A stretch of DNA of 64,000 nt from Baekduia soli (GTDB lineage: Bacteria > Actinomycetota > Thermoleophilia > Solirubrobacterales > Solirubrobacteraceae). Positions 52,207 to 58,134 of this stretch are shown one piece after another (position 1 is the stretch's first letter; each line of letters opens with the position of its first letter). Location: contig NZ_CP042430.1 of assembly GCF_007970665.1 (NCBI RefSeq), forward strand, positions 1,240,001-1,304,000, given 5' to 3'. The notes below the pieces were generated by a model. It saw nothing but the letters and a program-made list of their open reading frames with translations, was not told the origin of the DNA and made no database searches. The translations under genes and the position numbers were made by a program.

Positions 52207-53802
52207 CTAGGACGTCGCAGCGTCGAGCCGGGCCTGCGTGCGCATCTCGGAGAGGATGCGCTCCAGCCGCGGCTCGGTCTCGGTGTCCACGTGCGTCATC
52301 GCGGCCCCGACGGCCGGGTGCACCGCGCTGATCGCGCGGTGCATCTCGTGCGCGACGGCGCGGTAGCTCGGGTGCCCCTCGCGCCCGGAGCGCAGCTCGA
52401 TGAGCTGCATCGCCTCGCGGGCGTTGAGGTCCAGGACGTAGCGGATCCGGTATCCCAGGCACAGGGCGTAGGGCGCCGCGCGGTGCTGCCCGGCGTCGGC
52501 GAGCGCCTGCCAGGCGGCCCGCGAGGTCTCGTAGGCGCGCCGGACGTCGTCGCCGCAGCCGGCGGCGTCGACCTCCTCGGGCACGCCCGCCCCGAGGTGT
52601 GGGGTGAGCTGCTGCCACTGGACGGTCAACATCCGGTGGCGCTGCAGGTCGCGGAAGGCGCCGTAGTCCGAGACGATCTCGAAGCGGTAGCGCAGGGCCT
52701 CGAAGCCGCGGCCGGGCCGGTGGCGCCGGTTGGCGCGGGTGCCGACCAGGTCGGCGAGCATCGCCGCGCGCTCGTCCGCCGCCAGGGCGGCGAGGCGGAT
52801 CCGCGCGGCCTCCTCCCCGACGCCGGTGGCCTCGAACAGCAGCGCCGCCAGCAGCGCGTCCTCGTCGCCGTCGACATGCAGCAGCCGCACCGACGAGCCG
52901 CCCTCGCCGTCCCCGGTCCCGCGCTCCAGGCCCAGGCGCGCCGCCCACCGCGCCGCCGCGGCGTCGCGCTCCTGCAGATAGGCGACCCACTCGCCGCCGC
53001 GGTCGGGGCGCTCCACGCGCGCGACGAAGGACGGCATGACGGCCTGGACGGCCTCCAGGATGCCCTGCCCGTAGGCCCGGGCCTCGGGCAGGGGATGGGC
53101 CAGCAGGTGCAGGATGAGCTGCTCGTAGCTCTGGCCCGAGGCGTAGATGCCCATGTGCGACAGCGCCGCGGCGGGCAGCACGCCGCGCAGGAGGTCCAGC
53201 GCCTTGGCCCCGAGCGCGCGCGTGCGCGCGGGGGAGGGGTCGCCGGGGAACTCGTCGTCCAGCCACGCGCGCACGCGCGGGAGCGCCCCCGCGTAGACGC
53301 CGAACACCTCGTCCATGGCGGCGGCGTAGCCGGGCCCCAGCGCGCCGTCGCGGTAGTAGCGGTAGCGCGGCTCGCCCTCCCGGCCCGCGGGCATCGGGGC
53401 GTCGTAGGGGATGTAGCGCGTGGACTGCTCGAGGTAGGAGGCCAGCCGCGGGCGCTGCAGGACCTTGGTGAGCACGTTGGAGGTCCACTCGCAGGCGACG
53501 TGCATCCCGCCGAGCTGGGCCACGGAGTCGTCGCCGTAGCCCAGGAAGATCCGGTCGTAGAGGTCGGCGGCCCGCCGACCCTCGCCGGACTCGAAGGCGG
53601 GCAGGCCGGGCAGCGACTCGGCGAACTCGTCCAGGAAGAGGCGGCGCAGGGTCCCCTGGTAGCGGGAGTAGCGGGCGAACAGCGCGCCCTTGACGGTCTC
53701 GGGCAGGTTGACGAGTGCGAAGACGGGACGGTCGAGGTTCGTCACGTGCGGGGCCAGCACGGCCCGCTCGGCGGGGGAGAAGGTCTCGACGGGGTAGTCC
53801 AC
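52207..53802 (-). CDS. ThyX-like protein with two fused thymidylate-synthase-type domains
   Basis: A 531-residue protein built of two halves that each resemble flavin-dependent thymidylate synthase (ThyX, usually 220-260 residues). The N-terminal half has RPRLASYLEQSTRY at 117-130: Ser127 of the RHR-x7-S motif is kept, but His is Pro. The C-terminal half has the RHR (388-390, LQRHRMLTVQWQQL), but Gln replaces the Ser, and it ends with the family's NAREAMQLIELRSGREGHPS region. So neither half has a full motif. It may be an active fused pseudodimer or a divergent flavoprotein. The GTG at 53802, with TAGCAT 10 nt before it, is chosen over a GTG at 53853. Confidence 0.8.
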   Translation of the reverse strand: MDYPVETFSPAERAVLAPHVTNLDRPVFALVNLPETVKGALFARYSRYQGTLRRLFLDEFAESLPGLPAFESGEGRRAADLYDRIFLGYGDDSVAQLGGMHVACEWTSNVLTKVLQRPRLASYLEQSTRYIPYDAPMPAGREGEPRYRYYRDGALGPGYAAAMDEVFGVYAGALPRVRAWLDDEFPGDPSPARTRALGAKALDLLRGVLPAAALSHMGIYASGQSYEQLILHLLAHPLPEARAYGQGILEAVQAVMPSFVARVERPDRGGEWVAYLQERDAAAARWAARLGLERGTGDGEGGSSVRLLHVDGDEDALLAALLFEATGVGEEAARIRLAALAADERAAMLADLVGTRANRRHRPGRGFEALRYRFEIVSDYGAFRDLQRHRMLTVQWQQLTPHLGAGVPEEVDAAGCGDDVRRAYETSRAAWQALADAGQHRAAPYALCLGYRIRYVLDLNAREAMQLIELRSGREGHPSYRAVAHEMHRAISAVHPAVGAAMTHVDTETEPRLERILSEMRTQARLDAATS

Positions 53803-53812
53803 GGGGGCGGCG

Positions 53813-53818
53813 ATGCTA
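53813..53818 (-). promoter_or_regulatory. -10 element of the ThyX-like gene
   Basis: TAGCAT with 10 nt to the GTG at 53802; it lies within the longer open frame and argues for the shorter protein. Confidence 0.5.
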
Positions 53819-53919
53819 GCGACCGGTCCGGCGGGGCGCGATCGCGGACTCACGCCCGCTTGCGCACTTTGTCCACCGGCTGAATCACCACTTTGCCCAT
53901 TGGGGCAGTCGACTTGGGG

Positions 53920-53979: not shown

Positions 53980-55005
53980 GTGAAGCTCAAGATCCTGATC
54001 CTCGCCCTAGCCTCCGCGGCCCTCCTGGCCGCCGGATGCGGCGGCGCCTCCGACAGCACCTCGGGCTCCTCGGGCTCGTCCTCCTCGGGCTCGGGCGGCG
54101 GCTCCTCGCTGTCGCTGGTGGCCTACTCCACGCCCGAGGTCGTCTACGACGAGATCATCCCCGACTTCCAGAAGACCCCCGAGGGCAGGGGCGTGTCGTT
54201 CAAGACCTCCTACGGCGCCTCGGGCGACCAGAGCCGCGCGGTGCTCGCCGGCCAGAAGGCCGACGTCGTCGCGCTCTCGCTCGCGCCCGACGTCGACAGG
54301 CTCGTGCCGGACAAGCTCGTCCCCGCCGACTGGGTCGAGCAGACCGAGGCGGCCGGCGGCAAGGGCGGCTTCGTCACGACCTCGCTGGTGTCCTTCGTCG
54401 TGCGCAAGGGCAACCCGAAGGGCATCAGGGGGTGGGACGACCTCCTCAAGCCCGGCGTCAAGGTCGTCACGCCCAACCCGTTCACCTCGGGCGCGGCGAA
54501 GTGGAACCTCATGGGCGCCTACCAGCACGGCGGCATCGACTACGTCCGCCGGCTGCTGACCGACCACGTGCCGGTCCAGCCCAAGTCCGGCCGCGAGGCG
54601 CTGCAGACCTTCACCGGCGGCGAGGGCGACGTCCTCATCTCCTACGAGTACGAGTACACGACGGCCGTCAAGAAGGGCGAGAAGGGCCTGCAGCTCGTGC
54701 AGCCCGCCGACACGTTCCTGATCCAGAACCCGATCGCGGCCACGACCGCGGGCGGTGCCAAGGGCCGGGCCTTCGTGACGTTCGCGCTCAGCGACGCCGC
54801 CCAGCAGCACTTCGCCGACTGGGGCTACCGCCCGGTCAACCAGGCGGTCTTCGACAAGAACAAGGCCAGGTTCCCTTACCCGCCGACGGTCAGGACGATC
54901 GACGACTACGGCGGATGGTCGAAGGTCAACGACGAGCTGTTCGACCCCGAGAAGGGCTCCGTCGCCAAGATCGAGGACGACAACGGGGTCTCGACCGCCA
55001 AGTGA
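53980..55005 (+). CDS. sbp: sulfate/thiosulfate ABC transporter substrate-binding lipoprotein
   Basis: Binds sulfate or thiosulfate outside the membrane. A lipoprotein signal (LLAAGCGG, Cys20) is followed by a Ser/Gly linker and a 295-residue type II binding domain. Family segments are visible: LVAYSTPEVVYDEIIPDF, SYGASGDQSRAVL, ADVVALSLAPDVDRL, VTPNPFTSGAAKWNLMGAY and GEGDVLISYEYEY. The GTG start follows GGGAGG by 11 nt. Its stop overlaps the first permease gene as GTGA; the operon runs sbp-cysT-cysW-cysA. Confidence 0.95.
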   Translation: MKLKILILALASAALLAAGCGGASDSTSGSSGSSSSGSGGGSSLSLVAYSTPEVVYDEIIPDFQKTPEGRGVSFKTSYGASGDQSRAVLAGQKADVVALSLAPDVDRLVPDKLVPADWVEQTEAAGGKGGFVTTSLVSFVVRKGNPKGIRGWDDLLKPGVKVVTPNPFTSGAAKWNLMGAYQHGGIDYVRRLLTDHVPVQPKSGREALQTFTGGEGDVLISYEYEYTTAVKKGEKGLQLVQPADTFLIQNPIAATTAGGAKGRAFVTFALSDAAQQHFADWGYRPVNQAVFDKNKARFPYPPTVRTIDDYGGWSKVNDELFDPEKGSVAKIEDDNGVSTAK

Positions 55006-55853
55006 GCACGCAGGCCGCCACCCCCGCCGCCCCGGCGCGCCCCCGGCGCCGTCCGTACCCCACGGCGCGCGCGGGCGGCGTCGGCGGCCGCGGCATGGGC
55101 CTGGCGATGCTGTGGCTGAGCATCATCGTGCTCCTGCCGCTGGCGGCGCTGGCGGCCAAGTCGCTCGACGGCGGCCTCTCGGCCTTCTGGGACTCCGTCT
55201 CCAGCCGCCAGGCCGTCTCGGCGCTGAGGTTCACACTGATCGTCTCGGTCATCGTCGCGGCGGTCAACGCCGTCGCCGGCCTGGCGATCGCCTGGACGCT
55301 CGTGCGCGACGAGTTCCCCGGGCGCAGGATCGTCAACGCGGTGATCGACCTGCCGTTCGCCATGCCGACGATCGTCGTCGGCATCACGCTGCTGGCGCTC
55401 TGGGGGCCGACGAGCCCCGTCGGCATCAACCTCGCGTTCACGCAGCTCTCCGTGGCGCTCGCACTGCTGTTCGTCACGCTGCCGTTCGGCGTGCGCGCGG
55501 TGCAGCCGGTGCTCATGGAGCTCGACGACGAGATGGAGCAGGCGGCCGCGTCGCTCGGCGCCGGCCCGCTGACGACGTTCCGCCGGATCATCCTCCCCAA
55601 CCTGGTCCCGGCGATCCTCTCGGGCGCCGCGCTCTCGTTCGCGCGCGCCGTCGGCGAGTTCGGCTCCGTGATCCTCATCTCGGGCAATAAGCCGTTCGAC
55701 ACGCAGGTCTCGTCGGTCTTCATCTTCAAGCAGATCGAGAGCGACAACGCGCGCGGCGCCGCGGCGGTCGCGGTCGTCCTGCTCGGCGTCTCGCTGCTCA
55801 TGCTGATCGCGTTGCGCGTCATCGAGTACTGGGGCTCGCGCCATGACCACTAG
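55002..55853 (+). CDS. cysT: sulfate ABC transporter permease
   Basis: A 283-residue permease with six helices and the EAA loop (EMEQAAASLGAGPLTTFRRI) that contacts the ATPase, plus VGEFGSVILISGN, typical of CysT/CysU. A basic, Pro-rich N-terminal tail of about 30 residues precedes the first helix. The last 11 nt overlap cysW. Confidence 0.95.
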   Translation: MSTQAATPAAPARPRRRPYPTARAGGVGGRGMGLAMLWLSIIVLLPLAALAAKSLDGGLSAFWDSVSSRQAVSALRFTLIVSVIVAAVNAVAGLAIAWTLVRDEFPGRRIVNAVIDLPFAMPTIVVGITLLALWGPTSPVGINLAFTQLSVALALLFVTLPFGVRAVQPVLMELDDEMEQAAASLGAGPLTTFRRIILPNLVPAILSGAALSFARAVGEFGSVILISGNKPFDTQVSSVFIFKQIESDNARGAAAVAVVLLGVSLLMLIALRVIEYWGSRHDH

Positions 55854-56649
55854 CCCGGTCGGCCGCCACGGGATTCGCGTCGTCGCGCTCGGCTACGTGG
55901 CGGTGCTGCTGCTCGTGCCGATCGGCGTCGTGCTCCACCGGACGTTCGAGCCCGGCGTCGGCGCGGTGTGGGCGTCGGTCACGACGCCGGCCGCGGTCAG
56001 CGCGTTCTGGCTGACGATCGAGATCGCGGCCGTCGCCGTCCCGCTCAACACGATCTTCGGGATCGTGGCGGCGCTCGCGCTCGTGCGCTCGCGCGTGCGC
56101 GGCAAGCGCCTCCTCGAGGCGCTCATCGACCTGCCCTTCGCGATCTCGCCGGTGGTCATCGGCCTGGCGCTGTTCCTGCTCTACGGCCGCCAGGGCTGGC
56201 TCGGGCCGATGCTCACCGACGCCGGGATCCGGATCATCTTCTCCGTCCCCGGCATGGTGCTGGCCACGATCTTCGTCTGCCTGCCGTTCGTCGTGCGCGA
56301 GGTCGCGCCCGTGCTGCGTGAGATCGGCGACGAGCAGGAGCAGGCCGCCTCGACGCTGGGCGCCTCGCGCTGGCAGACCTTCCGGCGCATCACGCTGCCG
56401 GCGGTCCGCTGGGGCGTGGCCTACGGCGTCGTGCTGTCGGTCGCGCGGGCCATCGGCGAGTTCGGCGCGGTGAGCGTCGTCTCGGGCAGGATCTCCGGCG
56501 AGACCATCACGCTGCCGCTGCTCGTGGAGAACCGCTTCTCGAATTTCGACCTCGCGGGGGCCTATGCCGCCTCCGCGCTCATGGCCGTCATCGCGCTCGT
56601 GGTCCTGCTCGCGATGACCCTCCTGCAACGCAAGGGTGATGCCCGATGA
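55843..56649 (+). CDS. cysW: sulfate ABC transporter permease
   Basis: A 268-residue partner permease with the EAA loop [20 protein letters not shown] and the CysW-type [26 protein letters not shown] segment. It forms the heterodimeric channel with CysT. Its stop overlaps the cysA start as ATGA. Confidence 0.95.
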
Positions 56650-57671
56650 TCTCCGTCTCCTCGGTCTCCAAGCGCTACGGCGGCTTCGCCGCGCTGGACG
56701 AGGTCTCCGTCGAGGTCGAGTCCGGCTCGCTGACCGCGCTGCTCGGGCCGTCGGGGTCGGGCAAGTCGACGCTGCTGCGCGTGATCGCCGGGCTCGAGGT
56801 GCCCGACGAGGGCACGGTGGTCCTCGAGGACCGCGACGTGACGCGCCTTGCCCCCCAGCGGCGCGGCATCGGCTTCGTCTTCCAGCACTACGCCGCGTTC
56901 AAGCACATGACGGTGCGTGACAACGTCGCGTTCGGGCTCAAGGTGCGCAAGCGCCCGAAGGCCGAGATCGCCGCCAAGGTCGACGAGCTGCTCGGCGTCG
57001 TCGGGCTGGCCGGCTACCAGGGCCGCCATCCGTCGCAGCTCAGCGGCGGCCAGCGCCAGCGGATGGCGCTGGCCCGTGCGCTGGCGGTCGAGCCCAAGGT
57101 GCTGCTGCTCGACGAGCCGTTCGGCGCCCTGGACGCCAACGTCCGCGCCGAGCTGCGCGCGTGGCTGCGCCGGCTGCACGACGAGGTCCACGTCACCACG
57201 GTCCTGGTCACCCATGACCAGGAGGAGGCGATGGAGCTCGCCGACCGCATCGTGGTCCTCAACGGCGGCCGGGTCGAGCAGGCCGGCGCTCCGCGCGAGC
57301 TCTACGACGTCCCGGCCAACCCGTTCGTCATGGGCTTCCTCGGCCCGGTCGCCCGCCTGGGTCAGGGCCTCGTGCGCCCGCACGACCTCATCATCACCGC
57401 CGGGCCCGGCGAGGACGGCATCGAGGCGCAGGTCGCCCGCATCGTGCACCTGGGCTTCGAGGTGCGCGTCGAGCTCGAGCTCGACGGCGAGGGCGCCGTG
57501 GCCGCCCAGCTCACGCGCCACGAGGCGGAGGAGCTCGAGCTGGCCGAGGGCGACATCGTCTACGTGCGCCCCGACGGGACCGCGCCCCTGCAGGCCGACG
57601 GCGCGCCGGAGCCCGCCGCGCCGGCGCCCGAGGCGCCGGCGCCCGAGGCGCCGGCGCCGGCCGCGGGCTGA
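56646..57671 (+). CDS. cysA: sulfate ABC transporter ATP-binding protein
   Basis: A 341-residue ATPase. Walker [11 protein letters not shown]-loop [12 protein letters not shown], signature [15 protein letters not shown], Walker [13 protein letters not shown] and switch His in VTHDQEEA are intact. The C-terminal TOBE-like domain is followed by a tail of about 28 residues made of PAPEA repeats (15-bp DNA repeats near 57625-57660), likely disordered. It converges with the Rrf2 gene, one base apart. Confidence 0.96.
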
Positions 57672-57672
57672 G

Positions 57673-58134
57673 CTACCGGCGCGTGACCCAGGCCTCGGGG
57701 TCCTTGGCGAGCCCCTCGATGTCCCTGCCGAGGTCGCCCGAGGCCAGGTCGGCCAGCGTGACCTCCTCGACGACGCTGCGCAGCGCGGCGCGCACCGCGA
57801 TCCACACGCGCTGCAGCGGCTCGGCGGTGCCGGAGTAGTCGACGTCCTCGGGCCGGCCGCCGCGCACGGAGGCCAGCGGCCCCTCGACGGCGCGGATGAT
57901 GTCGGCGACGCTGATCTCCTCCGCCGGGCGCGCGAGCCAGTAGCCGCCCTCGGCGCCGCGGCGGCTGGTCACCAGCCCGGCGTGGCGCATGTCGGCGAGG
58001 ATGTTCTCCAGGAACTTGAGGGGGATCGCCTGGGCCTGGGCGATCGTGTCGCCCTTCGTCGGACGCTCGTTGCCGGACACGGCGAGCTCGATGGCCGCTC
58101 GGACCGCGTAGTCGGCTTTCGCGGAGATGCGCAC
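57673..58134 (-). CDS. Rrf2-family transcriptional regulator (CymR-like, no cysteines)
   Basis: A 153-residue regulator: winged helix opening MRISAKADYAVRAAIELA, the recognition part PLKFLENILADMRHAGLVTSRRGAEGGYWLARP and a dimerisation helix. The three cysteines that hold Fe-S in IscR and NsrR are absent; there is no Cys at all. That matches CymR-type members, which sense sulfur status through cysteine synthase. Being next to the sulfate operon, control of cysteine or sulfur genes is the natural guess, though the two units converge. Confidence 0.88.
   Translation of the reverse strand: MRISAKADYAVRAAIELAVSGNERPTKGDTIAQAQAIPLKFLENILADMRHAGLVTSRRGAEGGYWLARPAEEISVADIIRAVEGPLASVRGGRPEDVDYSGTAEPLQRVWIAVRAALRSVVEEVTLADLASGDLGRDIEGLAKDPEAWVTRR

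Follow-up and report, generated by a model that had tools for sequence, protein, structure and literature searches.

The 64,000-nucleotide window of the Baekduia soli genome analysed here (the whole stretch, hereinafter the window) carries, at positions 52207-53853 of the minus strand, a gene for a 548-residue protein made of two fused domains of the FAD-dependent (flavin adenine dinucleotide-dependent) thymidylate synthase ThyX (Thy1). The residues of the ThyX active site are divided between the two domains, and the division is absolute among 104 diverse homologues of the fused protein: each half keeps what the other has lost. The gene very probably encodes the only enzyme with which the organism synthesises thymidylate de novo, and we propose that this essential enzyme probably works as a fused dimer, a pseudo-tetramer that would hold two composite active sites instead of four.

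Residue equivalences were taken from an alignment to the Mycobacterium tuberculosis (Mtb) ThyX chain, which is gapless over N-half residues 105-151, and conservation was counted in the 104 homologues; a previous tally of 98 sequences is in agreement. The ThyX motif RHR-x7-S does not lie within one domain of the fused protein, which sets it apart from standard ThyX as a variant. As the initial annotation had recognized in this gene, the N-half reads R134-P135-R136-x7-S144 and the C-half R405-H406-R407-x7-Q415, so that the C-half alone has RHR and the N-half alone has the Ser.

The N-half (approximately residues 20-318, 52900-53796; this and all features below are on the minus strand) is the predicted donor of the deoxyuridine monophosphate (dUMP) loop and of the Ser that contacts the FAD phosphate. 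Its loop, E142-Q143-S144-T145-R146-Y147 (53413-53430), corresponds to Mtb Q103, S105, R107 and Y108 and to Thermotoga maritima E86, S88, R90 and Y91. E142, S144, R146 and Y147 are invariant (104/104), as are S110 of the G107-D108-D109-S110 segment (53524-53535), equivalent to the subunit B residue Mtb S71, and R223 (53185-53187), the Arg of the ThyX motif ARxxLP (Mtb R172). The RHR site is degenerate in this half: R134-P135-R136 (53446-53454) occupies the place of Mtb R95-H96-R97, with R (71 sequences) or W (33) at position 134, G (71) or P (33) but never H at position 135, and R136 in all. The equivalents of Mtb R190 and R199 are Q (Q241 at the R190 place) and L or M, respectively.

The C-half (residues 319-525, 52279-52899) is the predicted donor of the flavin-binding RHR and the dUMP-activating Arg. 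R405-H406-R407 (52633-52641), equivalent to Mtb R95-H96-R97, is intact and invariant, as are R479 (Mtb R190, in the N-x-R motif) and R488 (Mtb R199; both within 52390-52419); the T. maritima counterpart of R488 is R174, the dUMP-activating Arg. The dUMP loop is lost from this half, Q415, T417 and P418 (52600-52611) standing at the places of Mtb S105, R107 and Y108: position 415 is free to vary (P, R, T, A and S all occur, among others), position 417 is never R and position 418 never Y. At the place of Mtb S71, the C-half has R382 (52708-52710), which is Arg in every homologue.

According to a review of ThyX structures, each active site of Mtb ThyX is built by three subunits, with subunit A giving RHR and R199, subunit B S71 and R190, and subunit C R87, S105, R107 and Y108 (PMC6514825). 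Set against these roles, the fused protein has every A-role residue in its C-half and the Ser, Arg and Tyr of the C role in its N-half. The B role is divided in the actinobacterial branch, with the Ser in the N-half and the Arg in the C-half. The two most divergent members, encoded on a Paenibacillus plasmid and in the Tunturiibacter phage Tunturi_5, have the Ser and the Arg of the B role together in the N-half, which keeps the classical GHxS as well; the Paenibacillus-type C-half has R-H-N-R instead of RHR. Across the two halves the residues of subunit A (R405-H406-R407 and R488), subunit B (S110, with R479 or an N-half R190) and subunit C (S144, R146 and Y147) are all present, the exceptions being the equivalents of Mtb R87 and H69, which are changed in the actinobacterial branch. 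As a refinement of the initial annotation, the split thus appears to track subunit roles and not one motif alone. The accompanying suggestion, that complementary loss may rebuild a composite active site, is supported, though as regards the geometry of such a site and its activity it is a prediction.

Genome content points to thymidylate synthesis as the role of the fused protein. A canonical thyA or a standard thyX elsewhere, which the initial annotation had raised, was looked for and none was found: the Baekduia soli genome (one contig, 5.2 Mb, 95.6% complete) yielded no ThyA, no Thy1 domain besides the fused gene, no FolA and no thymidine kinase (PF00265). Among 41 related genomes, none of the 29 with the fused gene has ThyA or single ThyX, and all 12 without it have ThyA, single ThyX or both; because this switch occurs within one family, it shows repeated replacement. 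The pattern extends to 396 Actinomycetota genomes, where the fused gene is present in 130, never beside another ThyX and in 126 without ThyA, and 261 of the 266 genomes lacking it have ThyA or a separate ThyX. The sampled genomes are related, so Fisher values overstate the certainty of these associations.

Oxidation of folate to dihydrofolate accompanies the ThyA reaction but not that of ThyX, so that FolA can become dispensable with ThyX. The scarcity of FolA in genomes with the fused gene (matches in five of 130: G161, G223, G331, G316 and, weakly, G266) fits this chemistry, and the fused gene has the genomic mark of ThyX, replacement of ThyA mostly with loss of FolA. The four fused-gene genomes with a match to PF00303 comprise one full-length gene (G331), one in two pieces (G223), one fragment (G161) and one weak match (G247). 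In a few of these, thyA and folA adjoin on one contig (G331, C8:48396-49669; G223, C39; G161, C181) and the pair resembles a gained cassette; G161 is possibly contamination. Five of the 396 genomes, for example G074 and G106, have neither the fused gene nor ThyA nor another ThyX by these models, which could reflect incompleteness or a further type of enzyme.

Pfam finds PF02511 twice in the fused protein, and each half passes the cut-off of 24.8 bits when searched alone (N-half, residues 1-318, 3.7e-13 and 50.1 bits; C-half, 1.4e-15 and 58.0 bits). Searching the PDB with the single fused protein by phmmer gave no match, and a small-profile search gave weak matches only; the ThyX assignment rests on Pfam and on the structure model. 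Profile-profile alignment of each half to five closely related single ThyX proteins gave no significant score, the template sequences being too few. A first AlphaFold2 model from 15 sequences was poor (predicted local distance difference test score, pLDDT, 59.9) and was set aside; the model from 104 sequences has a mean pLDDT of 89.6 and a predicted template modelling score of 0.88. Its C-half matches T. maritima TM0449 (3g4a_B) with a Z score of 17.7 and a root-mean-square deviation of 2.3 over 193 aligned positions in residues 317-526, other ThyX structures follow at Z 13-17, and the first unrelated match has Z 4.4; Foldseek agrees. In the model, the N-half shows the same succession of helices and strands. 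The initial annotation had tied homology of the N-half to a ThyX-like fold; the prediction is ThyX-like in the C-half, and PF02511 recognises the N-half by itself. The initial annotation had started the gene at 53802, and that in-frame GTG (codon 18) is an equally plausible start, since conservation begins at about residue 20; the longer frame from the GTG at 53853 to the stop at 52207 is also open, and no ribosome-binding site is clear enough to choose between the two.

Over 584 related places came up when bacterial genomes were scanned, and the 80 kept come mostly from Thermoleophilia and Acidimicrobiia, including Conexibacter, Solirubrobacter and Patulibacter. Relatives also occur on plasmids of Miltoncostaea, Euzebya, Parabacteroides and Paenibacillus, in one phage record (Tunturiibacter) and in several viral contigs, and the plasmid and phage homologues, at 23-42% identity, have the same split. 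The Tunturiibacter phage member directly follows a deoxycytidine monophosphate (dCMP) deaminase gene and the Euzebya plasmid member lies near dcd; both neighbourhoods support thymidylate synthesis, dCMP deaminase and dcd being sources of dUMP. In a FastTree tree of single halves, built on a short and divergent alignment, the C-halves cluster (support 0.96) apart from the N-halves, and this grouping suggests a single origin of the fusion.

Some individual relatives depart from the common form. A Paenibacillus-type double ThyX on the viral contig IMGVR_UViG_3300033802_000519 (L173) has an N-half interrupted by an intein-like insertion, placed precisely at the Mtb S71 site (GHS|SVAEH), that begins C-YDEETDV and ends HVSGN|S; inteins favour catalytic motifs, and the insertion therefore fits an active N-half. 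Five genomes of families that otherwise carry the fused gene (L160-L164; G090, G079, G049, G111 and G190) have a single ThyX-like protein of ~300 residues with NTHRxFSRNSxSSRAIP, that is THR and not RHR. A double ThyX 74% identical to the Baekduia soli protein comes from a record titled as the Bifidobacterium breve metagenome-assembled genome TrH-03may19-71 (L052), a title that looks wrong for the DNA.

We propose that two fused chains would form the pseudo-tetramer, in which the C-half would take the role of subunit A, its RHR holding FAD and R488 activating dUMP, and the N-half that of subunit C, with S144, R146 and Y147 binding dUMP and covering the flavin. The subunit B role at the FAD phosphate would be filled by a second N-half (through S110) or, less likely, by a second C-half (R382 and R479); the former is suggested by S110 itself and by the N-x-R Arg in the most divergent members. 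Each working site would then consist of one C-half and probably two N-halves, two sites would work per fused homodimer and the remaining two pseudo-sites would be dead. It is likely, if a little less so than this scheme, that a homotetramer has in this way become a fused pseudo-heterotetramer, an obligately asymmetric enzyme with two composite sites that is widespread: many Thermoleophilia, Acidimicrobiia and other lineages would have no other thymidylate synthase, and plasmids and large phages carry it too.

Several observations count against this scheme. The fused protein scores 53.1 bits against TIGR02170, the curated NCBIfam thyX equivalog, below the cut-off of 87.9, as is expected of a strongly diverged fused form, and the fold search matched the C-half only, with no separate N-half match (one domain can fill the list, and the missing match does not speak against the N-half). 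N126 stands in the N-half at the place of Mtb R87, a dUMP contact, and the folate-stacking His (Mtb H69) is absent from both halves in the actinobacterial branch; some details of the active site must therefore differ. The invariant R479 and R382 would, in the actinobacterial branch, equally suit a C-half in the B role. A thymidylate synthase of that other assembly would place C-halves in the A and B roles, so that each site would take two C-halves and a single N-half and its Ser and Arg phosphate contacts would be replaced by R382 and R479. The constancy of both arginines and the replacement of R190 by Q241 in the N-half speak for it. Against it stand the constancy of N-half S110, the presence of R190 in the N-half and its absence from the C-half of the two most divergent members, and the tree, which suggests (with modest support and a poor alignment) that the fusion arose once; we regard this assembly as unlikely.

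A departure from thymidylate synthesis altogether is far less probable. The initial annotation had offered a flavoprotein with a new role, and such a different role or substrate has precedents that came up in the fold search, by title only: PolB, a uridine monophosphate (UMP)/dUMP methylase (4p5a/4p5b), and a Corynebacterium glutamicum ThyX reported not to be required for thymidylate. Strong divergence from single ThyX and the change of some active-site residues would suit it. However, across the 396 genomes the fused gene excludes ThyA and other ThyX almost perfectly, which makes a different role very improbable: the gene's own genome, like 126 of the 130 genomes that carry it, contains no other candidate thymidylate synthase, these genomes mostly lack FolA as ThyX chemistry predicts, and relatives without the fused gene carry ThyA or single ThyX. 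That the gene is decayed or misassembled, its motif residues lost by error or relaxed selection, would be suggested by the atypical motifs only and has next to no probability; the frame is intact and conservation of the same residues in the 104 homologues, which come from independent assemblies, refutes it.

The fused gene heads a fab cluster: fabD follows 57 bp downstream and is read in the same direction. The initial annotation had rightly placed it beside the fatty-acid operon, but the fabD adjacency recurs only in close relatives (5 loci), and a fatty-acid link was dropped on that ground. Only close relatives have the fab cluster or the sulfate transporter genes next to the fused gene, so that the fab neighbourhood carries little functional meaning, and other neighbours that recur in the wider set are uninformative on function. 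Divergent from the fused gene (window positions 53980-58134), a sulfate/thiosulfate-type ATP-binding cassette transporter operon runs from 53980 and comprises a binding protein, two permeases and an ATPase, followed by a convergent Rrf2-like regulator (57673-58134, minus strand); all were named by sequence reading.

With ThyX as known from PF02511, TIGR02170, T. maritima TM0449 and Mtb ThyX, the fused protein shares the Pfam family in both halves, the predicted fold of the C-half, all classes of catalytic residue somewhere in the chain and the genomic replacement of ThyA and FolA. It differs in having two domains per chain, residues divided by subunit role, a score below the TIGR02170 cut-off and a predicted two sites per pseudo-tetramer, as opposed to four. 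The Thermus thermophilus Thy1 (6j61), which the C-half matches with Z 17.4, is also longer than usual ThyX, but its title describes a single Thy1 domain with an extra C-terminal domain of ~240 residues, not two complementary Thy1 domains. The phage family phrog_36506 of PHROG ('thymidylate synthase', 491 positions) is likewise long, and the fused protein matches it at 3.6e-9 in two stretches. Public records annotate such genes as FAD-dependent thymidylate synthase. Neither a fused or duplicated ThyX nor its split was described in the open-licence literature searched, which is not proof of absence. The chemistry is known and the arrangement is new.

ThyX belongs to an essential pathway, thymidylate synthesis, and serves research both as a drug target and as a model for flavin methylation. 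With its flavin arm and dUMP loop separated by nature, the fused enzyme would reveal which subunit supplies what and would allow single sites to be mutated without touching the others; the fusion would also exemplify cleanly how a homo-oligomer can evolve into an interlocked pair. In about one third of the sampled Actinomycetota genomes, the main thymidylate synthase escapes the usual sequence signature. Baekduia soli, and probably whole classes of its relatives, would make its T through a single fused enzyme of which neither half could do so alone.
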